64,000 nt of DNA from Betaproteobacteria bacterium (GTDB taxonomy: Bacteria > Pseudomonadota > Gammaproteobacteria > Burkholderiales > Burkholderiaceae_C). Below, one piece after another: positions 238-11,902 of this stretch; positions within the stretch are counted from its first letter, which is position 1, and each line of letters starts with the position of its first letter. Below the pieces are notes generated by a model. That model worked only from the letters and a program-made list of their open reading frames with translations. It was not told where the DNA came from and did no database searches. The stretch covers positions 47,772 through 111,771 of the forward strand of contig RGCL01000001.1 in assembly GCA_009919175.1 (NCBI GenBank). The letters run 5' to 3'. A program made the translations under genes and the position numbers.

Positions 238-1023
238 TCACAGGTTTTGGTTCAGGTACTTGAGCATGCCGTCCACGGTTTCGATGGACTTGGAATTGAT
301 CTCGTACGCACGTTGGGTTTCGATCATGTTGACCATTTCGGTCACCACGTTCACGTTGGAAGCCTCCAGGGAGCCCTGCGCCAATACACCGGCGCCCGCA
401 ACACCCGGCTGCTGCAAAACAGGCGGGCCACTGGCTGCCGTGGTGGCCATGAGGTTGTTGCCCAACGGCTTCAAGCCGGCGGGGTTGATGAAGTTGGCAA
501 TCTGGATCTGACCCAGCTGCTGCTGACCACCACCGGCCACCAATTCGATGGTCACCGTGCCATCGCGCCCAATGGTGAGCGCGGAAGCATTGGCGGGGAT
601 GGTGATCTGGGGCTGCAAGAGAAAACCCTGGGCATTGACCAGCTGACCGGTGGCCGAGAGTTTGAAGTTGCCATCGCGCGAATAGGCCAGCGTGCCATCG
701 GGCTGCAGGATCTGGAAATAACCATTGCCTTGGATGGCCACATCCAGAGGGGCATTGGTATTGATCATGTTGCCCTGCTCAGGCAACTTTTCGACGCCCA
801 CGACCTTGACACCCGTGCCCAGCATCATGCCGGTGGGCAATTGGGTGTTGACCGTCGAGAGCCCGCCAGGCTGCAAGACGTTTTGGTAGAGCATGTCTTC
901 AAAAATGGGGCGATCCCGCTTGAAACCCGTCGTATTGACGTTGGCCAAGTTGTTGGAGATCACGTTCATGCGCGTTTGCTGCGCATCCAAACCGGTTTTC
1001 GATACCCACAATGCGGCGTCCAT
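238..1023 (-). CDS. flgG: Flagellar distal rod protein FlgG
   Basis: N-term MDAALWVSKTGLDAQQTRMNVISNNLANVNTTGFKRDRP and C-term EMVNMIETQRAYEINSKSIETVDGMLKYLNQ, typical of FlgG. Confidence 0.97.
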   Translation of the reverse strand: MDAALWVSKTGLDAQQTRMNVISNNLANVNTTGFKRDRPIFEDMLYQNVLQPGGLSTVNTQLPTGMMLGTGVKVVGVEKLPEQGNMINTNAPLDVAIQGNGYFQILQPDGTLAYSRDGNFKLSATGQLVNAQGFLLQPQITIPANASALTIGRDGTVTIELVAGGGQQQLGQIQIANFINPAGLKPLGNNLMATTAASGPPVLQQPGVAGAGVLAQGSLEASNVNVVTEMVNMIETQRAYEINSKSIETVDGMLKYLNQNL

Positions 1024-1074: not shown

Positions 1075-1842
1075 TCAGGTTTGCAACCGGATCATGGACG
1101 ATGCGTTTTCATCATTCGATTTGGCTTCCTTGATCATTCGAACCTGCTGCTCAAACATGCGGCTCTGATCGATCAATCGAACCAAGGCAGCCATGGGGTT
1201 GACGTTGCTGCTCTCCAGCGCTTGTGACGTCAATCCGACAGGCTGTTGACCTGTTGCAAAGTCCGTGCCAGATGCCTGCCCCAGGACCTTGAAAAGACCG
1301 TCTTCGCGCCTCTCCAGCCTGACTTCGCTGGCATCGCGCAAAAAAAGCTGGGCAATCGGGACTTCCTGGGGCACACCAGGCTGGGTGGGGTCGGTGGCAA
1401 AAACATTGCCGTCTGAGCCGAAGCGGACCTTGAAACCCACGGGGATGGTGATGGGGTTGTTATCGGCGCTGAGCACCAGATGCCCTGCCCCATTGACCAA
1501 GGTGCCCTGGTTATTGAGCCGCAAATCGCCCCGGCGGGTGAAGGCCAGCTCCCCGTTGGGAGCGGTGACACCCATGACGGTCTTGCCCGACAAGGCCACA
1601 TCCATGTCTTTGCCGGTCACCATCAAAGGACCTTCACGCAAGTCAATGAAGTCGCCGGGAATCAACTTGGGCTGGATGCGTGAATCAAAACCCTCGCCTT
1701 TGGCCATGACGCTGATGAGCGAAGAGTCAAACGACCGCTTAAAGCCCGTGGTGTTCAAGTTGGCCATTTCGTTGGCCAAGGCCTGCCGTTGGTAATTCAT
1801 CTCATTGATGGCATGAGACGAGGTGAAAGCTAAGCGGTCCAT
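1075..1842 (-). CDS. flgF: Flagellar proximal rod protein FlgF
   Basis: MDRLAFTSSHAINEMNYQRQALANEMANLNTTGFKRSF; position between flgG and flgE. Confidence 0.93.
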   Translation of the reverse strand: MDRLAFTSSHAINEMNYQRQALANEMANLNTTGFKRSFDSSLISVMAKGEGFDSRIQPKLIPGDFIDLREGPLMVTGKDMDVALSGKTVMGVTAPNGELAFTRRGDLRLNNQGTLVNGAGHLVLSADNNPITIPVGFKVRFGSDGNVFATDPTQPGVPQEVPIAQLFLRDASEVRLERREDGLFKVLGQASGTDFATGQQPVGLTSQALESSNVNPMAALVRLIDQSRMFEQQVRMIKEAKSNDENASSMIRLQT

Positions 1843-1865: not shown

Positions 1866-4800
1866 TCAGGCGCGGATTTGAATGATGGTCTGCGTCAAAG
1901 TGGCATCGGTTTCGATGGCTTTGGCACTGGCCTGGAAGTTACGTTGTTCAGTGATCAGGTCCACCAGCTCGGCGGTCAAGTCCACGTTGGCGCTCTCGGT
2001 TGCACCCGATCGCACCGTGCCAAAGCCTGCCGATCCGGCTTCACCAATCTTGGCTGAACCCGATGCGTAGCTGGCATAGAAACTGGAGTTACCAATCTGG
2101 CGCAAACCGGCCGGGTTGGAGAAGTTGGCCAGCACGATCTTGCCCAGGGACTGCTGCGTGCCGTTGGAATAGGACGCGTTGACCAGACCGTCATCGGCAA
2201 TGCTCAGGCCCACCAGGTCACCTTCGGGTGCACCGTCCTGCGACTGTGACAACACCGCAAAGGGCGAGGTGTATTGGGTGGACTTGGAGTAATCGATGTT
2301 GATGGACAAAGAGCCTTTACCGTCAGGGAGGTAAATCGTGTCGAGCTTGGAGCCGGTGGTGGGGGAGATCAATCCACCCGCCGTGTTGAAGGTCAACTCG
2401 CCTCGGTCCAAATAAACCGGGGACCAAGCTGGCAAAGCCGTAAAGCCATCGGCAGAAGCGGTTTCATTGCCGTATTTGTCGATGTACTGGGCAACCGGCA
2501 CGCCATTGGCAACCTGGGTGAACTGGGTGGGCTTGATCCAGGTCGATGTGGCGCCGCGTCCTGCCTGCACCGACGACAAGCCCCACAGGGCATCGCCCGT
2601 GACCTTGATGAAGGAGTCTTCGCCCGAGGTCCCTGTGGTGAATTTGAGAGAGTTCGTCGCACCGTCGTAAGAAACTTTGACGCCAGACACCGAGGGACCG
2701 GTCAGCCCTGCGCCTGCACTGGGACCAGTCAAACGGTTGATGCCGTCCTCCAAGGCCTGGATGAAGGTGTCCAGGGTGTAGTTGGACTTGGGCTCGAGCA
2801 CCACCGTGCCTTGCACGTTGTCGACCGAGACCACAAATTTGTTGTTGGACACATCCACCGAGAAGGTGTTGTTCACGTTGATGCCGATGGGGGTGCCTGT
2901 CATGACCGCCGGGTTGGAGGCCAAGCCGCGCAATGCCGTAGCGGTGGTTTCGACCGAGTAATTGATGGGGATGCCAGCAGGCGTGCTTTCCACCAAACCC
3001 AGTTTGGTCAACGCCAGGTTCTCGATGTCGGTCGTGGGCACGACAGAAATGCTGGACATGTCGCCTGAGGTGCCCGAGGTGAAGACAAAGTTTTGATTCA
3101 CGCTGTCATAGGTCACCGTCATGCCAAAGCGCTGCAACTTGGCATCGCGAATGTAAGCACCCTGGGGATAAGAGGTGGCCGACAAGGTGGTCAAGTTAGG
3201 GTCCTGGGTCAAAGAGGCCGATGACATGCCCATGAGCAAGTTGGGGCCGCCCGTGAGCGACATGGTTGCGCCAGTTGGGGGGGCGAAGACGAATTGCTGG
3301 GACACAGGGTCATATTGGGTGGTCACGGCCGAGCTGGGGGTGGAGACAGTGCCTCGGGGATAGGTCACACCCGATACAAAGTCAGTTCCCGACGCCACCA
3401 CCGTCACCCCCGCACTGGGGGTGATCACGAGGTTGGTGCCGCTCACGGTCACCTCAAACGTGACCCCAGCGCCACCGTCGGTCACCGTGATGGCGCCCAC
3501 CGTCGAACCTTGTGATTCCGCCAGGTCAGTGATGTCGCCCACGGCCGTCGAAGTGAACACCACTTGGTCGGTATTGTTGGCAGCGCCAGTCGCATACCCA
3601 TTCAAGGTACCCGTATAACTGCCCTTGGCTGTTCCGGGACCCGTGGTCGCGCCTTCAGCCAAATTTGCAAAAGCAGCGGCGACTTCGTCTGCGGTGGCAC
3701 CGTTTGCGCCAGCCGTGAATTTCAGGCCTCCCAACTCCACGAATTGACCTGCAGTCAGTGCAACAAACTGCACCGAAGCCGCTTCAGAGGTGTTGCCCAA
3801 AGAGGGGTCGGTATTGAGGTCGGTTTCCAGTTTGGTGGCCATGTCGCTCAGACTGGTGGCATCCAAGAATGACGCGGTATCGTCCAGCTGGATGGCTTGG
3901 GCTGTGTTGCCATCCGTGTAGACCAGATTGAAGCCCTTGAAGTAGGTGCCCGATGTCAATGGGGACACCAACTGAACTGCGCCATTGGGCAGCGTAGAGG
4001 TGGCATTGAAGCCCGTTCCCGATTTGGTGATGGTGCCACCTTGCTTGTCGGTGATGATCAGGTCCAAACCGTTGTCGGCCACTTTGACGCTGAATCGGTT
4101 GTCCGAGAAAGACACCACCACTTGGTTGTTGCCTTGCGTCTCGGTGTACGTGTTCAAGCTGGAGTTATTGAGGTCAGCTTGCAGCTTGGTGGCCATGTCG
4201 GTGAGGCTGGAGGCCTTCAAGAAAGACGCCGACGAGCCGAGAACGATAGGGTGGGAATAGCCAGGGTTGCCTGGGGTCGTGTATTTGAGGGTGAAGCCGC
4301 CAAAGTTGGCGCCAACGCCTGACGAGTTCTCAATCACCACCTTGGAGTTATCGGCCGTATAGAGCTGGTCATTGATGAGCTTGGAGACTTCTTCCGACGT
4401 CATGCTGGGGAAGTTGGGATAGTCGGCTGCCGTGGTGTTCTTGAGCACACTCACCCCGTTGGTGTCGGTGAGGCTACCCAGGTTGATGGTCTTGGTGCTC
4501 AAGGTCACACCGGTATTGGGGTCGGTGGTCACCACCTTGAAGGTGGGGTTGGAGGTGAAGTTGAAGTACTTGCCATCCCCCAGCTTTTGGTTGATGACAT
4601 TGGTGAGCTCTTGAGCGATCTGCGCGCCTGAGAGGGTCACGTTTTTACCCGCCAGATGTTCCAGACCGATCGAGACTGGTGTTCCCGTATCGTCCACATC
4701 GATGGTGAACATGTCGGTGAGCTGGTGGGCGTTGTATTGGGAGAAATTCACGCCTTCACCCGGCAAAGTGCCCAGGTTGGAGGCTGTGCCACCGGTCACT

Positions 4801-5663
4801 GTGGCCGGGGTGGAGGTGCGCACATCCGTCAAGTCATCAAGGTGAAAACTCATGGTCTTGGCGTTGACCAACTGATCGCTCACCTTGCTTTCGGGTTCTA
4901 GCTGGCCGTATTGGTTCACATAGAGCTTTTCACCACTCGAATTGGTGGCCTGCTGCAATGCCGCACCCACCAGCGTTTCACCCACATACACATAGGTTTG
5001 CCACTTGTTGGTGGGGGACGCTTGCGAGGCGTTTTGTGTCTTGACGTAGTAAACGGTGGCCAGGTAACTGTTGCCCCCCGCGTCATACACGGTCAAAGCC
5101 GTGCTCTTGTTGTAAGTGGTGGGGTCGTTGCGATCAAAATCGCCGCCCACCACCTTGGCATCGGCTGGGAAGTTCAAACCCAACTGGATCAGCGAGGTCT
5201 CGCGCGCCTGACCTGAGGTCTTTTGCGGAATGGTGAGCACGCTCAATTCATCCAGGTTGGCCTTGCCCGAGCTATCGACCGAGGCCGCCAGGAGTCGCTG
5301 TCCCGAAGAGTTCACCACGTTGTACTGGTCGTTCATCATGAACGATCCATTGCGGGTGTAAATGCTTTGAAGCCCGTCGGGTGACTTCAGCGGGAAGAAA
5401 CCGTCACCGGTAATGGCAAGGTCAAGCGTGTTGGCCGAGAAAGCCACGTTACCCTGGCTGAACTGCTGTGTCACTTGCTTGAGCGCCACACCCTGACCGA
5501 TGGTGGTCGAAGCGTTTTGCAAAGGTGAAGTGGCAAAGATGTCGCCAAAGTCGGTGCGGCTTCGCTTGAAACCCACCGTGCCGGCGTTGGCGATGTTGTT
5601 CGATGTCACACCGAGGGCTGACGTGGCGGCCTTGAGGCCAGTGAGCGCGGTAAAAAAGGACAT
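1866..5663 (-). CDS. flgE: Flagellar hook protein FlgE, unusually large (1265 aa)
   Basis: FlgE N-terminus (MSFFTALTGLKAATSALGVTSNNIANAGTVGFKRSRTDFGDIFA) and C-terminus (AELVDLITEQRNFQASAKAIETDATLTQTIIQIRA) bracket a very long central region. Confidence 0.95.
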   Translation of the reverse strand: MSFFTALTGLKAATSALGVTSNNIANAGTVGFKRSRTDFGDIFATSPLQNASTTIGQGVALKQVTQQFSQGNVAFSANTLDLAITGDGFFPLKSPDGLQSIYTRNGSFMMNDQYNVVNSSGQRLLAASVDSSGKANLDELSVLTIPQKTSGQARETSLIQLGLNFPADAKVVGGDFDRNDPTTYNKSTALTVYDAGGNSYLATVYYVKTQNASQASPTNKWQTYVYVGETLVGAALQQATNSSGEKLYVNQYGQLEPESKVSDQLVNAKTMSFHLDDLTDVRTSTPATVTGGTASNLGTLPGEGVNFSQYNAHQLTDMFTIDVDDTGTPVSIGLEHLAGKNVTLSGAQIAQELTNVINQKLGDGKYFNFTSNPTFKVVTTDPNTGVTLSTKTINLGSLTDTNGVSVLKNTTAADYPNFPSMTSEEVSKLINDQLYTADNSKVVIENSSGVGANFGGFTLKYTTPGNPGYSHPIVLGSSASFLKASSLTDMATKLQADLNNSSLNTYTETQGNNQVVVSFSDNRFSVKVADNGLDLIITDKQGGTITKSGTGFNATSTLPNGAVQLVSPLTSGTYFKGFNLVYTDGNTAQAIQLDDTASFLDATSLSDMATKLETDLNTDPSLGNTSEAASVQFVALTAGQFVELGGLKFTAGANGATADEVAAAFANLAEGATTGPGTAKGSYTGTLNGYATGAANNTDQVVFTSTAVGDITDLAESQGSTVGAITVTDGGAGVTFEVTVSGTNLVITPSAGVTVVASGTDFVSGVTYPRGTVSTPSSAVTTQYDPVSQQFVFAPPTGATMSLTGGPNLLMGMSSASLTQDPNLTTLSATSYPQGAYIRDAKLQRFGMTVTYDSVNQNFVFTSGTSGDMSSISVVPTTDIENLALTKLGLVESTPAGIPINYSVETTATALRGLASNPAVMTGTPIGINVNNTFSVDVSNNKFVVSVDNVQGTVVLEPKSNYTLDTFIQALEDGINRLTGPSAGAGLTGPSVSGVKVSYDGATNSLKFTTGTSGEDSFIKVTGDALWGLSSVQAGRGATSTWIKPTQFTQVANGVPVAQYIDKYGNETASADGFTALPAWSPVYLDRGELTFNTAGGLISPTTGSKLDTIYLPDGKGSLSINIDYSKSTQYTSPFAVLSQSQDGAPEGDLVGLSIADDGLVNASYSNGTQQSLGKIVLANFSNPAGLRQIGNSSFYASYASGSAKIGEAGSAGFGTVRSGATESANVDLTAELVDLITEQRNFQASAKAIETDATLTQTIIQIRA

Positions 5664-5684: not shown

Positions 5685-6389
5685 TCAATTGCTGACGCGT
5701 TGAACTTGACTCAGGCCAAGGGTTTTGCCGCCCTGAACCTGCAACAGCCAGGAGCCATCGCTGGTGCCAGCGTTGCTGGCGCTGATGACTTGCGACATCA
5801 CATCGGGGGTGATGGTTTTGGTTTGACCCATGCTGGTGGCCGTGACGATGAAGTTGTAGGAGCCATCGGGCAGCGGTGTGCCCTTGTCGTCTGTGCCATC
5901 CCAGGTGAGCGACATATCGCCAACTGGCTGAGAGCCAAATGTCTGGCTGCGCACCACAGAGCCCGTTGAATTGACGACTTGCAGGCTCACGCCATCGGCT
6001 CCGCTTGGCAAGTTCACATATGCAGAAACTGGGCGCCCTTGCTGCAACACGGCTGTGCCGCCATTGACGCCGACCATGCGTCCGATCATGGAAGAACCGG
6101 TGAGCATGCGGTCACCTGTCATGGCCTTGACCAAAGTGTCCATGCTGGACTTCATGGACTGCGAGGCCTCGAGTTGGGAAAACTGGGCCAACTGAGCCAC
6201 GAAAGTCTGGTTATCCATCGGATCGAGTGGGTTCTGGTTTTTCAACTGTGTTGTGAACAGCGTCAAAAATGCCTGCTGCCCCATCTCGTTGTTGATGGGC
6301 TTGGAGGCCTTGTCGGTCTCATACTGCTTGGTGGTCTTGATGCTGCTGGAGAGCAGCGGTGAATACCCATTGGCGGTTGAAGTGGTCAT
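5685..6389 (-). CDS. flgD: Flagellar hook assembly (cap) protein FlgD
   Basis: QQAFLTLFTTQLKNQNPLDPMDNQTFVAQLAQFSQLEAS signature. Confidence 0.96.
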   Translation of the reverse strand: MTTSTANGYSPLLSSSIKTTKQYETDKASKPINNEMGQQAFLTLFTTQLKNQNPLDPMDNQTFVAQLAQFSQLEASQSMKSSMDTLVKAMTGDRMLTGSSMIGRMVGVNGGTAVLQQGRPVSAYVNLPSGADGVSLQVVNSTGSVVRSQTFGSQPVGDMSLTWDGTDDKGTPLPDGSYNFIVTATSMGQTKTITPDVMSQVISASNAGTSDGSWLLQVQGGKTLGLSQVQRVSN

Positions 6390-6401: not shown

Positions 6402-6839
6402 TCAGGCTTTGGTGATTTCAAGGGTGCGCATCATCAGCAAGCGTGCTGTATTGACCACCTCGACGTTGTTTTGATAGGAGCGTGAGGCCGTCATCATTTC
6501 GACCATCTCCTGCATTTCATTGACGTTGGAGAGCCAAACAAAACCACGCTCGTCTGCCAAGGGGTTGCCCGGGTCGTATTGCGTTCGCACTGGTGTGGGG
6601 TCGTTTTGCAACTGGTGCACCTTGACGCCACCGACGAATTGAGCACCTGCATTGGTCATCTCTTCGTTGACCAGGGCTTTGAAAACGGGGCGCTTGGCGC
6701 GAAAGGCATCGGCCTCGGTGGTGGACACCGTGTTGGCGTTGGCCAGGTTGGATGCAATGGTGTTCATGCGAACACTTTGGGCATTGAGCGCAGTGGACGC
6801 GATGCCAATGACGTTATCGATGGTTTTCATCATCATCAA
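6402..6839 (-). CDS. flgC: Flagellar basal-body rod protein FlgC
   Basis: IASTALNAQSVRMNTIASNLANANTVSTTEADAFRAKRPVF; C-term EMVEMMTASRSYQNNVEVVNTARLLMMRTLEI. Confidence 0.96.
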   Translation of the reverse strand: MMMMKTIDNVIGIASTALNAQSVRMNTIASNLANANTVSTTEADAFRAKRPVFKALVNEEMTNAGAQFVGGVKVHQLQNDPTPVRTQYDPGNPLADERGFVWLSNVNEMQEMVEMMTASRSYQNNVEVVNTARLLMMRTLEITKA

Positions 6840-7219
6840 TCTCCACGCAAGGCTTTGCGAATGCCTGAAATTCGGTTTTCAAGGAAGTTCAATGTGGTCT
6901 GGAAATCAGCGGCGGCCTTACCGTACTGGGCTTGCTCGACGTTGAGTTCGACCGTGTTGCCATCAAACGAGGAGTTGAATGGCACGCGATAGCGCATGCC
7001 ATCGTCAGGCATGTCCATGAGGCCGCCATAGTGCTTTTCATGGGTGGCGCTGATGCGATCCACCTCCAGCTCTTTGAGCACCGCTTTGAAGTCAAGCTCC
7101 TGGGACTTGAAGTTGGGCGTGTCAGCGTTGGCAATGTTGCTCGCCAGAATCTGCAGGCGCTTGCTCTGCAGGTTCAACACCTTTTCCTGAAACCCGAAGG
7201 CAGTGGACAACAAGTCCAT
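6836..7219 (-). CDS. flgB: Flagellar basal-body rod protein FlgB
   Basis: MDLLSTAFGFQEKVLNLQSKRLQILASNIANADTPNFKSQELDF; start set at internal ATG 7219. Confidence 0.95.
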   Translation of the reverse strand: MDLLSTAFGFQEKVLNLQSKRLQILASNIANADTPNFKSQELDFKAVLKELEVDRISATHEKHYGGLMDMPDDGMRYRVPFNSSFDGNTVELNVEQAQYGKAAADFQTTLNFLENRISGIRKALRGD

Positions 7220-7286
7220 GACATTCTCCGAACCGTACAACTCCCGCTTTCGCGGTCCCGCCCTCAAGAAAAGAGGACTCGGTTCG

Positions 7287-7338: not shown

Positions 7339-8697
7339 TCAAGGACGTGGCAAGCCCTGTCCACCTGGCAAGGGGGGCGGCGAATTTTTGCCGCTTGCGG
7401 CTGGGTTGCCGTTGGCACTGGCCAGCCATACGCCCTGCCCCACGACCTGGGTGGAAGCCTTGCTGATTTGCGTGGACGCACGCTGGACCAGTTGTCCGGC
7501 GCGGTTGACCAACTGGGAATAGGTGGCGGCGTCCATGCCCAATCGCTCCTGGGCGTTTTGATGCAGCCCCTGGACAATGGATTGTCGGGTGATGGGCAAA
7601 CGACGATCGTTATTGGTATAGAGGTGTTCGGCCTGCAAGCCAGGGATGTTGAGTCGCGCATTGGCACGCCCCTCATTGCGCGCAGCAGGTGTCAGCACCG
7701 TGAGGTAGAGGTCATCCTGACCGACATTGGAGAACTTGCGCAAGCCTGTGTCATCGAAATATTTGGAGACCAGATCCAATTGCTGCAACACGCTGCGATT
7801 GAGGATGGCCTTGGGATTGGAGGCAAAACCCGCGCTGGCTGCGCCTCGATCAGGACCATCGCAGAACTGGATGATGCCGTGGCAATTGGTGTTGGTGGCT
7901 TTGGGGTTCATGCCATCGCTTTCCATGAGCGTCATGCGCGCGAAGTCATCGGGCACAAAGCCGTAGGTTTTGCTCATGTCCATGATCTTGTCGTACACCG
8001 CCTGGCGTTCGCCAGCCGGGATGAACCCCTTGGCCACCGCTCGATCCAGGGTTCTGGTGAGGATGGGCGTATTGGGTAAATCCCCGTTTCTGATCATGGT
8101 TCGCGGGCTGGTTGCAGCAACCGCTTGGCGCTGGCTCAACATGGCCTGGGTGTTGTTCGAAAGAGGGTCCTGCATCTGGGCTGCCGCGACCGGCGCTTGC
8201 CCAGGCTGAGCCACCGCCTCGGGCGAGGTCACCGCCAAAGCCGCAGAGGTGGTCATCGGTGCCACCACAGAAGAAGGCGTTGGCAAGACAACGGCAGCGG
8301 CATTGCTGGCCACAGACATGGCATTGGTGCTGACATGGGCCTGAGCTGGCGCCTGAGGGGTCAAACTGGACAAAGACAGGCGCTGGCCAGGAAAGATGCG
8401 GTTGGGGTTGTCGATGCCATTGGCTTTGGCCAGGGTCATGGCCTGGGCAAAGGCCTGGGATTGGGTCACGCTGTCACCGCGCTGGGCGGCCAGGCGCTGA
8501 ACAATGCCCACCAGGGTATCGCCGGACTTGATCACCACCTCATCGGGCTGGGCTGTCGGTGGGTTGGCACCTGTTTTTTTCAGCAAAGCCGCGAAACGGT
8601 CTGGAGGCGGCGCATCTGAAGCCGCCACAGACATGCGTTCATTGGCATTCATCCAGATGGATGACATCATGGATTTGGATTCAATTGAAGGATTCAT
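7339..8697 (-). CDS. LysM-domain protein with lysozyme/transglycosylase-like domain, flagellar locus
   Basis: LysM: DEVVIKSGDTLVGIVQRLAAQ...NPNRIFPGQRL; C-terminal MESDGMNPKATNTNCHGIIQF resembles lytic transglycosylase E-S-x-x-N-P-x-A...G-x-x-Q-F; start set at ATG 8697. Confidence 0.65.
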   Translation of the reverse strand: MNPSIESKSMMSSIWMNANERMSVAASDAPPPDRFAALLKKTGANPPTAQPDEVVIKSGDTLVGIVQRLAAQRGDSVTQSQAFAQAMTLAKANGIDNPNRIFPGQRLSLSSLTPQAPAQAHVSTNAMSVASNAAAVVLPTPSSVVAPMTTSAALAVTSPEAVAQPGQAPVAAAQMQDPLSNNTQAMLSQRQAVAATSPRTMIRNGDLPNTPILTRTLDRAVAKGFIPAGERQAVYDKIMDMSKTYGFVPDDFARMTLMESDGMNPKATNTNCHGIIQFCDGPDRGAASAGFASNPKAILNRSVLQQLDLVSKYFDDTGLRKFSNVGQDDLYLTVLTPAARNEGRANARLNIPGLQAEHLYTNNDRRLPITRQSIVQGLHQNAQERLGMDAATYSQLVNRAGQLVQRASTQISKASTQVVGQGVWLASANGNPAASGKNSPPPLPGGQGLPRP

Positions 8698-8723
8698 GGC
8701 ATGACTCTGTGGGACTTTTGATC

Positions 8724-8739
8724 TGGCATCGAACTTGCA
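8724..8739 (+). promoter_or_regulatory. Sigma-54-like promoter for flgA
   Basis: TGGCATCGAACTTGCA, one mismatch to TGGCAYRNNNNTTGCW; about 60 bp upstream of flgA ATG. Confidence 0.6.
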
Positions 8740-8794
8740 TGAAAGGTGGCACTTGTTCAACTTTTTGACAGACCACCCAACACTTTCAGGATCT

Positions 8795-8810
8795 TGCAAA
8801 TGCTGTGCCC
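8795..8810 (-). promoter_or_regulatory. Sigma-54-like promoter for the LysM/muramidase gene
   Basis: Minus strand GGGCACAGCATTTGCA; 15/16 match, GG and GC core dinucleotides intact; about 98 bp upstream of start. Confidence 0.45.
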
Positions 8811-9564
8811 ACTTCATAAGCCCCTCTCGTCCAGCCCCGCACCCGCGCGTGTGGTGGGTGTGAGCGTGTTGACGCTGACACTGCTGAGCATGAGCGCCGC
8901 TGGCCTGGCTCAATCCTCTGAAGGCCGGGCGATGCTCTTTCAATCGGCCACCGAATGGGTGTCACAGCAAAACCGCCTGGACCCCGCTTCCATTCAGTTC
9001 AACCCCCTGGATGAGCGGGTGCGCATTGCCGCATGTCGTCAGCCCATCCAGTTTGATCAACCGCTTGGCAATCCCAATACCCTCAGGGCGCGTTGCACGC
9101 AGCCCTACTGGCAACACTGGCTGAGCTTTTACACACAAGCTCCCCAGCGAGCCCAAGCAGCTGTTCAACAACGGGATCAAAACCGTGAAGTCTGGGTGGC
9201 CAACCAGTTGATCCGCCGCGGAACCCTGGTGACCCCCGACATGTTTGAGCGCCGCAACATGGACATCAGCAACGCAGAAACGGCGCTGATTCAAAGCCCT
9301 GAAGACCTCAAAAATGTGGAGTTGCTCAGGGACATGCAACCCGGCAGCCCCATCCGCAGCCACGACCTCAAACCCGCCATGCTGGTCAAGCGGGGCCAAG
9401 TGGTGCTGGTGTCCATGGGCGAAGGCCGTGGCTTTTTGGTCACCGTGCGCGCCGAATCCCAACAAGATGGGCGCCTGGGCGAGTTGATTCGCTTGAAAAA
9501 TCCCGAATCGGGCCGATTGTTATCAGCGATGGTGACTGGCCCCAACTCTGCGAGGGGGATGTGA
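8800..9564 (+). CDS. flgA: Flagellar P-ring assembly chaperone FlgA
   Basis: Signal peptide, SAF-like C-terminal region (NREVWVANQLIRRGTLVTPDMFERRNMDIS...RDMQPGSPIRSHDLKPAMLVKRGQVVLV). Confidence 0.92.
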   Translation: MLCPLHKPLSSSPAPARVVGVSVLTLTLLSMSAAGLAQSSEGRAMLFQSATEWVSQQNRLDPASIQFNPLDERVRIAACRQPIQFDQPLGNPNTLRARCTQPYWQHWLSFYTQAPQRAQAAVQQRDQNREVWVANQLIRRGTLVTPDMFERRNMDISNAETALIQSPEDLKNVELLRDMQPGSPIRSHDLKPAMLVKRGQVVLVSMGEGRGFLVTVRAESQQDGRLGELIRLKNPESGRLLSAMVTGPNSARGM

Positions 9565-9650
9565 GCATGCTCCAAGCCCATCTTTTGAATACTTTGATGC
9601 ACAATCTACCTACTGTGCCGATGTTTTCTGAATTTTTTTCAGCCAGCCGC

Positions 9651-9677
9651 TCAAGTTCACTTCAGTGGCTCCGATAC
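9651..9677 (+). promoter_or_regulatory. Sigma-28 (FliA) promoter for flgM
   Basis: TCAAGTTC-N11-TCCGATAC versus TAAAGTTT-N11-GCCGATAA; about 42 bp upstream of flgM. Confidence 0.7.
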
Positions 9678-9718
9678 ACCCAAGGTGAAAAAAGCTTTAG
9701 CTCTGCAGTGAGGTCATC

Positions 9719-10033
9719 ATGACGGACAAAATCGCAAACCAAGCCCGCATCCTGCAATCCAGCGATGTGATGCGCAGCAACCTGGACAAACTCAACGGCC
9801 AAAAAACGGCCAATGTGACTCAGGATGGCAAACCAGCGCCTGCAGACAAACCCAGTTCTGGAGCCGACTCCGTGTCTTTGAGTAATTTGGAACAAAAGGT
9901 CAAGGAGCAGGCCTCGTTTGATCGCGCCAAGGTGGAATCCATCAAGGAGGCCATCCGCAGCGGCAACTACCCGCTCGACCCGCGCCGCATCGCTGAGAAC
10001 TTTGTCTCCCTTGAACGCATGATTGAGGGCTGA
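9719..10033 (+). CDS. flgM: Anti-sigma-28 factor FlgM
   Basis: C-terminal DRAKVESIKEAIRSGNYPLDPRRIAENFVSLERMI; downstream of flgA. Confidence 0.92.
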   Translation: MTDKIANQARILQSSDVMRSNLDKLNGQKTANVTQDGKPAPADKPSSGADSVSLSNLEQKVKEQASFDRAKVESIKEAIRSGNYPLDPRRIAENFVSLERMIEG

Positions 10034-10040
10034 ACCAGCC

Positions 10041-10454
10041 ATGAGCGACCTGCAAGATTTGCCTTTGGTTGATCAGGCGATGGTTCGCGTGCAAGCCCTC
10101 GAAGGCTTGCTGGAAGAAGAATTCGGCGCCTTGAAGGTCCAGGATCTGGACCAGTTCGAGCGTTTGCTGAATCAAAAGAATGACCTCCTTCACGAACTCA
10201 CCCAACTCACTGGGGTGGTCAAACCCGAGGACTCCGATGCCCTAGGGCAAGAGTGGGATGACTTTCGTGCTCGCATGGCTGGATGCCGAGATCTGCATCG
10301 CCGCAATGAAATCCTGATCCTGCGCAAGCTCGACGCCATTCGTGGCGCACTCGACAGCTTGCAACTGGGCGGCTCTGGCAGCTCAGTGGAAACCTACGAT
10401 CGACTCGGTCAGGTGCGCCGGGGTCGTCGCCAGCGCGATCACCAAGCAGCCTGA
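10041..10454 (+). CDS. flgN: Flagellar export chaperone FlgN
   Basis: Small helical protein (LEGLLEEEFGALKVQDLDQFERLLNQKNDLLHELTQL) directly after flgM. Confidence 0.85.
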   Translation: MSDLQDLPLVDQAMVRVQALEGLLEEEFGALKVQDLDQFERLLNQKNDLLHELTQLTGVVKPEDSDALGQEWDDFRARMAGCRDLHRRNEILILRKLDAIRGALDSLQLGGSGSSVETYDRLGQVRRGRRQRDHQAA

Positions 10455-10457
10455 AGG

Positions 10458-10742
10458 CTACGAGACGATTTTTTCGTCACCGGGCTGCATGCCCTTGAGC
10501 CAATACACCCACGACAAAATGACCGCCACGGCGGTATAGAGGTGTTCAGGGATCTCTTGCCCCAATTCGAGACGGCTCAACCATTCGGCCAATTGGGGAT
10601 CCTGAGCCACATGCACCCCATGTTCGCGCGCGGCTTGCAACAAGCTCAGCGCCGCCTCGTCCTCGGCCTTGGCGCTCACGATGGGGGATGTGTTTTGGCC
10701 ATACTCTAGGGCCACGGCTTTGAGGCTGCGTCGCATGATCAT
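10458..10742 (-). CDS. FlhB C-terminal-domain-like protein (no transmembrane part)
   Basis: AVALEYGQNTSPIVSAKAEDEAALSLLQAAREHGVHVAQDPQLAEWLSRLELGQEIPEHLYTAVAVILSWVYWL aligns by eye to the FlhB cytoplasmic C-terminal fragment. Confidence 0.85.
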   Translation of the reverse strand: MIMRRSLKAVALEYGQNTSPIVSAKAEDEAALSLLQAAREHGVHVAQDPQLAEWLSRLELGQEIPEHLYTAVAVILSWVYWLKGMQPGDEKIVS

Positions 10743-10747
10743 GTCTT

Positions 10748-11902
10748 TCAGGCCAGGGTGTCCAGGCGCAGGCGAACCGTTTGTTCCCAGTTGTCCTTTT
10801 GGGTCATGGGTTGAACCTCGCTTCGGGGTCGAGGCGAGTGATGAATCTGAAACGACTCGAGCTCAAGGCCAGAATCCTTCAACTCGGCGCCAAGCAAACT
10901 CGCTTTGCTGCGTGCCCAACTGACGGTTTGCGCCTGCAAAGCCCACATGACCAGACCCACACGGTGGCTGCTGCGGATCGTGGTGGCCAGCCAAATTTCG
11001 CCCAGACTGGCATGCAGGGTGTGCACGTCCACGGTGAAGGGCGGGTCATCGCCCTTGTGTTTGGGGGCATCGCGCTGAATGTGCAAATGCAATGGGCTGG
11101 CATCGGCAAACGGCAGCCACAGGTGCGCCGACAAAGCCCCTTTGGCCTGGGCCAAGGCAGCCTGAGCCTGGGCGCTGTCCATGGCTTCAAGACCCTGGCG
11201 AACCGTTTTCGCCTGCAGCCGGTCGACCTCGGAAGACTCTGATTGGGTCAGTGAATCCAAGAGTTTTTTGAGCATGCTGCGTGCATCGGGCAAGGGCGGC
11301 TGACCTTGTGCCAGTCGGCGCTCGTTGGGGATGAGGCCTTGCTGCACCAGCGCCTTGAGCAGGCTGGGATTGATTTGCGCCAGGGACATTGACTTGGCCA
11401 TCCACGCCTGCATCAAAGTCATTTGGAGCGGTGCTGCCTCACTGGTGGGTCTTGCCGAGAGCAAAGACAGCAAGGACGTCCCATCCATGGGTCGGGCCGC
11501 CATGGCCTGCATGCGTGCTTCGAGCAATTGTGCCGGGCTAGGTTGTGCAGCTGCGGCCGCTGAGGCCAGGCCAGCGCCGGCTGCCCCTGCGCCGGAAGAA
11601 GCTGCACTGGTGCCATCCGCTCGCGGCTGGATCAACAAAGCCCAAGAGCTCGCACCACGCACCACCCGCATGAAGGGCGTGTCGCCTGGCTTGAGGATCC
11701 AGCCATTGGGCATCTCAAAAGAAAAGTTTTTAAGCCACAGGCGAACAGAGCCGCCCTTGGCCTCGATCAGGGCTTGCACCACCTGCCCGTCGGTCAAACC
11801 CAGCTGCTGGGCCACCGAGGCCTCGATCCACAAGGGCTTGGCTTCGAGATTGGGCGTGGGTGTGGCCCGAATCACGCTGGATAAAGCGTCCAGGCCAAGC
11901 AT
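10748..11902 (-). CDS. FliK-like hook-length control protein (second copy)
   Basis: C-terminal LHASLGEIWLATTIRSSHRVGLVMWALQAQTVSWARSKASLLGAELKDSGLELESFQIH, FliK-type; adjacent to FlhB-like protein. Confidence 0.7.
   Translation of the reverse strand: MLGLDALSSVIRATPTPNLEAKPLWIEASVAQQLGLTDGQVVQALIEAKGGSVRLWLKNFSFEMPNGWILKPGDTPFMRVVRGASSWALLIQPRADGTSAASSGAGAAGAGLASAAAAAQPSPAQLLEARMQAMAARPMDGTSLLSLLSARPTSEAAPLQMTLMQAWMAKSMSLAQINPSLLKALVQQGLIPNERRLAQGQPPLPDARSMLKKLLDSLTQSESSEVDRLQAKTVRQGLEAMDSAQAQAALAQAKGALSAHLWLPFADASPLHLHIQRDAPKHKGDDPPFTVDVHTLHASLGEIWLATTIRSSHRVGLVMWALQAQTVSWARSKASLLGAELKDSGLELESFQIHHSPRPRSEVQPMTQKDNWEQTVRLRLDTLA

Follow-up and report, generated by a model that had tools for sequence, protein, structure and literature searches.

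The closest described system is the FlgE of Campylobacter jejuni (851–865 aa; PDB 5JXL, 5AZ4), whose 865-aa form has been ranked among the longest hook proteins (PMC5069557). Its extra domains are inserted in D2, where they form outer rings, widen the hook and add contacts (PMC5097172). The D3/D4 insertion corresponds to Thr167/Pro168 of Salmonella FlgE, and Salmonella FlgE carrying these domains (an insertion of ~386 aa) is functional and builds a wider hook (PMC5069557). Caulobacter FlgE likewise has an extra domain, D3, within D2. Among filament subunits, the giant flagellins of Bermanella and Oleibacter are axial proteins of more than 1000 aa from aquatic bacteria, with duplicated and inserted outer domains (PMC6248924). 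No paper on a FlgE above 1000 aa or on the FlgE of SAR92 was found among the open-access papers searched.

The window analysed here (64,000 nucleotides) comes from a freshwater bacterium that falls within Limnohabitans or close beside it (family Comamonadaceae/Burkholderiaceae). The gene order is flgBCDEFG according to the ORFs and Pfam matches, with flgE situated between flgD and flgF/flgG:

238..1023, minus strand: flgG, 261 aa, ordinary size, the basis of the second tree described below (Pfam)
1075..1842, minus strand: flgF, 255 aa, ordinary size (Pfam rod/hook domains and position)
1866..5663, minus strand: flgE, hook protein, 1265 aa (ORF; Pfam, NCBIfam and PDB sequence matches)
5685..6389, minus strand: flgD, hook cap scaffold, 234 aa, ordinary size (Pfam)
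6402..6839, minus strand: flgC (ORF sequence and position)
6836..7267, minus strand: flgB, start codon uncertain (ORF sequence and position)

The flgE frame runs unbroken from ATG to stop, contains no tandem DNA repeats, and its GC content is near-uniform along the gene, insert included (0.57–0.59). Both ends of the product are clearly FlgE, as the earlier note had stated. Flg_bb_rod (PF00460, residues 5–33), the D1 domain (PF22692, 83–149) and Flg_bbr_C (PF06429, 1219–1263) all match above their cut-offs, and solved FlgE structures match residues 4–228 and ~1092–1264 with E-values down to 4e-68. FlgE_D2 (PF07559) matches in two stretches (63 bits, cut-off 22.7) and is placed by Pfam at 173–287. 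The NCBIfam subfamily model TIGR03506 passes (269 vs 70), and the best FlgE equivalog reaches 364 bits, below its cut-off of 472, which is a threshold for whole-protein annotation and no biological feature. Because this score covers the whole protein, a long insert should lower it.

The site of the insertion follows from the alignment with Salmonella FlgE. Residues 1–217 of the window FlgE align to Salmonella 1–211 without a large gap, and residue 1092 pairs with Salmonella 237; therefore ~860 residues stand in place of ~25 inside D2, in the loop between Salmonella ~211 and ~237. The length of 1265 aa given in the earlier note is borne out, whereas its excess of about 800 residues is too low: compared with Salmonella FlgE (403 aa) it is ~860. 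Its figure of about 700–850 aa for epsilonproteobacterial FlgE agrees with the published 851–865 aa (PMC5097172, PMC5069557). The protein can be divided as follows:

FlgE 1–150, 5214..5663, minus strand: N-terminal D0/D1 (PF00460, PF22692; mean identity to relatives ~68–78% over 61–150)
FlgE 151–229, 4977..5213, minus strand: first part of D2 (PF07559 at 173–287; no large gap against Salmonella FlgE up to ~211)
FlgE 230–390, 4494..4976, minus strand: conserved outer extension, first half (coverage by relatives; AlphaFold2)
FlgE 391–780, 3324..4493, minus strand: hypervariable tip (low identity, variable length; low AlphaFold2 confidence)
FlgE ~629–719, 3507..3779, minus strand: shared module (profile matches in FlgK, flagellin and RTX-like proteins; compact predicted fold)
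FlgE 781–1090, 2394..3323, minus strand: conserved outer extension, second half (identity, near-constant length; AlphaFold2)
FlgE 1091–1265, 1866..2393, minus strand: end of D2 and C-terminal D1/D0 (aligns to Salmonella FlgE 237–403; PF06429 at 1219–1263)

The short FlgE with solved structures, those of Salmonella type and others (403–437 aa), have the same D0, D1 and D2 ends as the window FlgE but are without the ~860-residue insert. Caulobacter FlgE differs in carrying a single domain of 145 residues, at its own residues 184–328 (PMC5069557). With C. jejuni FlgE the protein shares D2-inserted outer domains and a variable surface region (PMC5097172, PMC5069557), but it is ~400 aa longer and has its insert at Salmonella ~211–237 and none at Thr167/Pro168. 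The differing site led to the rejection of a direct relationship with the D3/D4 of Campylobacter (PMC5069557). No significant sequence match was found between C. jejuni D3/D4 and the window insert, and the Foldseek match of the window FlgE to 5jxl is weak (E 0.03, prob 0.10). As the two enlargements occupy different sites in D2, independent insertion is the most plausible reading.

The insert interrupts FlgE_D2, the domain that lies furthest out in a standard hook, and this agrees with the expectation of the earlier note that the extra mass should lie in the outer hook domains. By analogy its position on the outside of the hook is the natural reading, since the D2 inserts of C. jejuni form outer rings and the Salmonella chimera builds a wider working hook.

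Could the length be an artefact? The genome is a draft of 248 contigs, and an assembly error, a pseudogene or a cleaved protein leaving an ordinary hook might be considered. The continuous repeat-free ORF with its near-uniform insert GC speaks against this, as does the recurrence of FlgE just as long in many separate genomes, isolates included, and we regard such an explanation as hardly credible; an assembly or repeat artefact was rejected on these grounds. FlgE ORFs of 939–1574 aa recur in the same genus (lengths from the genome searches are counted from stop to stop, which can add a few residues to the actual protein). The earlier note had named an assembly error, together with ~400-aa FlgE in close relatives, as what would speak against the giant size; the close relatives are not all that short. 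Among loci from named genomes of the genus, its neighbours and marine gammaproteobacteria, 51 full-length giant FlgE of 916–1558 aa were collected, including those of the isolates Limnohabitans B9-3, JirII-31 and Jir61, whose genomes encode FlgE of 1056–1280 aa. The 1265-aa FlgE ORF is genuine and three times the usual size.

In marine SAR92-type gammaproteobacteria FlgE has 944–978 aa (944 aa in HTCC2207, SAR92). Ordinary FlgE also occurs in the family of the host: in a length survey drawn by the conserved FlgE C-terminus, the 94 ORFs not of the giant type have a median of 451 aa and a maximum of 823. A phylum-wide FlgE_D2 survey was left out of this statistic because ranking by D2 score hides FlgE with a split D2. 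In one close relative (L038, frames +0 and +1) FlgE is split into frames of 1193 and 225 aa by a frameshift or a sequencing error. At least one Limnohabitans species has been described as non-motile (PMC3031073), a point against the overall reading of the hook given below.

The extra mass consists of two layers, a conserved extension (~230–390 and ~781–1090) and a hypervariable tip (~391–780). Compared with 42 relatives, residues 61–360 and 781–1250 are conserved, and most stretches within them are nearly constant in length. The first half of the extension is present in nearly all relatives up to ~360, with an identity of 20–47% from residue 241 on. The second half has a mean identity of 18–60% and an almost constant length (288–329 residues) across beta- and gammaproteobacteria. 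The tip shows 3–12% identity and ranges from 49 to 622 residues (sd 191). Prediction of the structure, proposed in the earlier note as a check, gave a corresponding picture: AlphaFold2 on 43 sequences has a mean pLDDT of 59.9, with residues 781–1090 mostly at 74–94 and 230–390 also well predicted, and with low confidence in the tip. The low values there may reflect the shallow alignment and not disorder. Foldseek with the predicted FlgE retrieves FlgE D2 and just a weak likeness to the outer domains of C. jejuni FlgE, FlgK and FliD. A phmmer search with the whole tip retrieves homologs via one region only, the shared module.

This module (~90 aa, residues ~629–719) has similar stretches in two proteins encoded just outside the window, FlgK (1141 aa) and a flagellin of 1783 aa, at 37–48% identity to the FlgE copy. 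A profile made of five such copies, run on the own genome, detects extra partial copies in the 1783-aa flagellin and also hits two giant open frames on contig C113, with scores of up to 71 bits; the five seed copies score high by construction, so that the independent evidence lies in C113 and in the matches of relatives. The C113 frames carry RTX-type calcium-binding repeats; they measure 3634 and 6335 aa from stop to stop (C113:39000-58000, L152) and hold several module copies. In relatives the module matches only flagellins, FlgK, FlgE, FliD and RTX-like proteins. A FlgE of another betaproteobacterial genome (L081:7255-8360), cut by the contig end, has at least three tandem copies. A FliD-like ORF of 735 aa (L158:2052-4256) has two copies, hence the filament cap can carry the module too.

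The first ~80 residues of the module are predicted as a compact fold of three strands, a helix and three strands (pLDDT mostly 85–93). A known domain was considered and rejected, as the module has no match in Pfam, PHROGs, PDB sequences or PDB folds; it is a domain family absent from the libraries searched. Flagellin_IN (PF07196) matches neither FlgE nor the module in the Pfam search, and has one match in the FlgK of the same cluster (833–865).

It is possible, and we propose it tentatively, that in this lineage one shuffled, previously undescribed domain family decorates every outer part of the flagellum, from the hook and junction to the filament and its cap, as well as RTX-like giant proteins, and so provides a common fast-changing surface coat. 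The tip might also be a neutral accretion, D2 loops tolerating insertions and repeat-rich surface genes donating segments without benefit. Its extreme length variation and low identity fit this idea, as does the ~386-aa insertion tolerated by the Salmonella chimera (PMC5069557). However, the reading frames are intact in the 51 full-length relatives, and the genomes that have the module carry it in several surface proteins. In a class-wide draw of 232 genomes, the own genome alone gave a match at 1e-8 (0 of the 231 others). This distribution suggests retention, and neutral accretion appears unlikely.

The first junction protein is enlarged as well. FlgK has 925–1214 aa in 8 of 8 giant-FlgE genomes tested, beta- and gammaproteobacteria alike. 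Within the family, FlgK of the giant type measures 831–1297 aa, the others having a median of 667 (one-sided p = 5e-4). Across 93 pairs located on one contig, FlgE length correlates with FlgK length (rho 0.36, p = 4e-4); both p values are optimistic, as related genomes are not independent. One giant-type genome (G502), whose FlgE is split over two contigs, was left out of this comparison. FlgK length also varies independently of FlgE. As an exception to the joint enlargement, genome G416 (contig C2) pairs a 1199-aa FlgK with a FlgE of ordinary size (415 aa, the matched stretch containing one TAA).

FlgL (308 aa) and FlgD (234 aa) are ordinary. The flagellins range from 310–418 aa in two marine gammaproteobacterial isolates to as much as 1442 aa in Limnohabitans isolates. 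A rule that hook and filament enlarge together was rejected, since the two marine isolates pair these short flagellins with a 944-aa FlgE; their ordinary flagellin also means that the enlarged parts are not simply matched in diameter. The Bermanella and Oleibacter giants are filament subunits, whereas the giant of the window is a hook protein, and its genome encodes both a giant hook protein and giant flagellin. Just below the window start, on contig C1 (28000-38900; L135:138-5489 and 7593-10898), lie flagellins of 1783 and 1101 aa, adjoined by the 1141-aa FlgK, a 583-aa FliD and FlgL. Contig C221 (1-9502; L137) carries a second set of FlgK (at least 1044 aa), FlgL, FliD (895 aa) and flagellin, with 38–54% identity to the first set where the two align, which is either a second flagellar system or a contaminant of the bin.

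A purely mechanical role of the insert deserves consideration: the additional outer domains would increase the contacts between subunits and make the hook stiffer, to suit a polar flagellum of high torque. The same has been argued for Campylobacter. The tip would then be tolerated slack. The near-constant length and the 18–60% identity of the second half of the extension across beta- and gammaproteobacteria are consistent with it, and so are the enlargement of FlgK with FlgE and the contacts added by the C. jejuni domains (PMC5097172). Yet mechanics alone leave unexplained a 390-residue tip with 3–12% identity and lengths of 49–622, which moreover holds a module common to RTX-like giant proteins. 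We consider the purely mechanical explanation doubtful, though less so than neutral accretion.

The FlgE core of the window is closer to that of SAR92-type proteins (identity ~60% at the N end and ~72% at the C end) than to ordinary FlgE of its own family (35–41% and 42–46%). In a tree of the FlgE core and in a separate tree of FlgG the giant beta- and gammaproteobacterial forms make up one clade (100/100 in each) with ordinary Burkholderiales apart, some end branches being long and the exact position of a few rows unsure. Because both trees join the giant forms against ordinary Burkholderiales, they point to horizontal transfer of the flagellar gene cluster between freshwater beta- and marine SAR92-type gammaproteobacteria, in either direction. 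GTDB places Burkholderiales within the gammaproteobacterial class, so that a single ancient origin is conceivable, with vertical inheritance of giant FlgE, its loss or shortening in other lineages and no transfer between the two groups. Both the difference in core identity and the fully supported separation of the giant clade for FlgE and for FlgG argue against vertical descent, which we judge quite improbable.

Taken as a whole, the likely reading is a normal hook tube with a conserved outer shell and an exchangeable variable tip, in which FlgK has grown along and the cluster has been horizontally shared. D0, D1 and D2 would build the usual tube, and the conserved extension in the D2 loop would form an additional outer shell, capped at the hook surface by the species-specific hypervariable block. 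The ORF, its insertion site, the two-layer conservation, the module in several proteins, the larger FlgK and the discordant trees are direct results; translation of FlgE, thicker hooks, an effect on stiffness and a surface role of the tip are inferred. The shell probably widens the hook and strengthens cross-contacts, and it may stiffen the hook; FlgK, as the first junction ring, would have grown along with it. The tip is probably an exchangeable surface coat serving adhesion or escape from phages or grazers, and part of it is a domain that the lineage also employs in flagellin, FlgK and FliD and in RTX-like giant proteins. The cluster would have been shared by horizontal transfer between the freshwater beta- and the marine SAR92-type gammaproteobacteria.

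The hook is usually viewed as a simple universal joint whose subunit is constrained. In a clade of abundant freshwater bacteria and in a marine clade far removed from it, the encoded hook subunit is two to three times as large as usual, with the insert at another D2 loop than in Campylobacter and, in the freshwater group, with a hypervariable tip. The natural length series (916–1558 aa, tips of 49–622 residues) offers a handle on what determines the diameter and stiffness of the hook, on a possible need for FlgK to match FlgE, and on a possible attack of phages or grazers on the hook surface.
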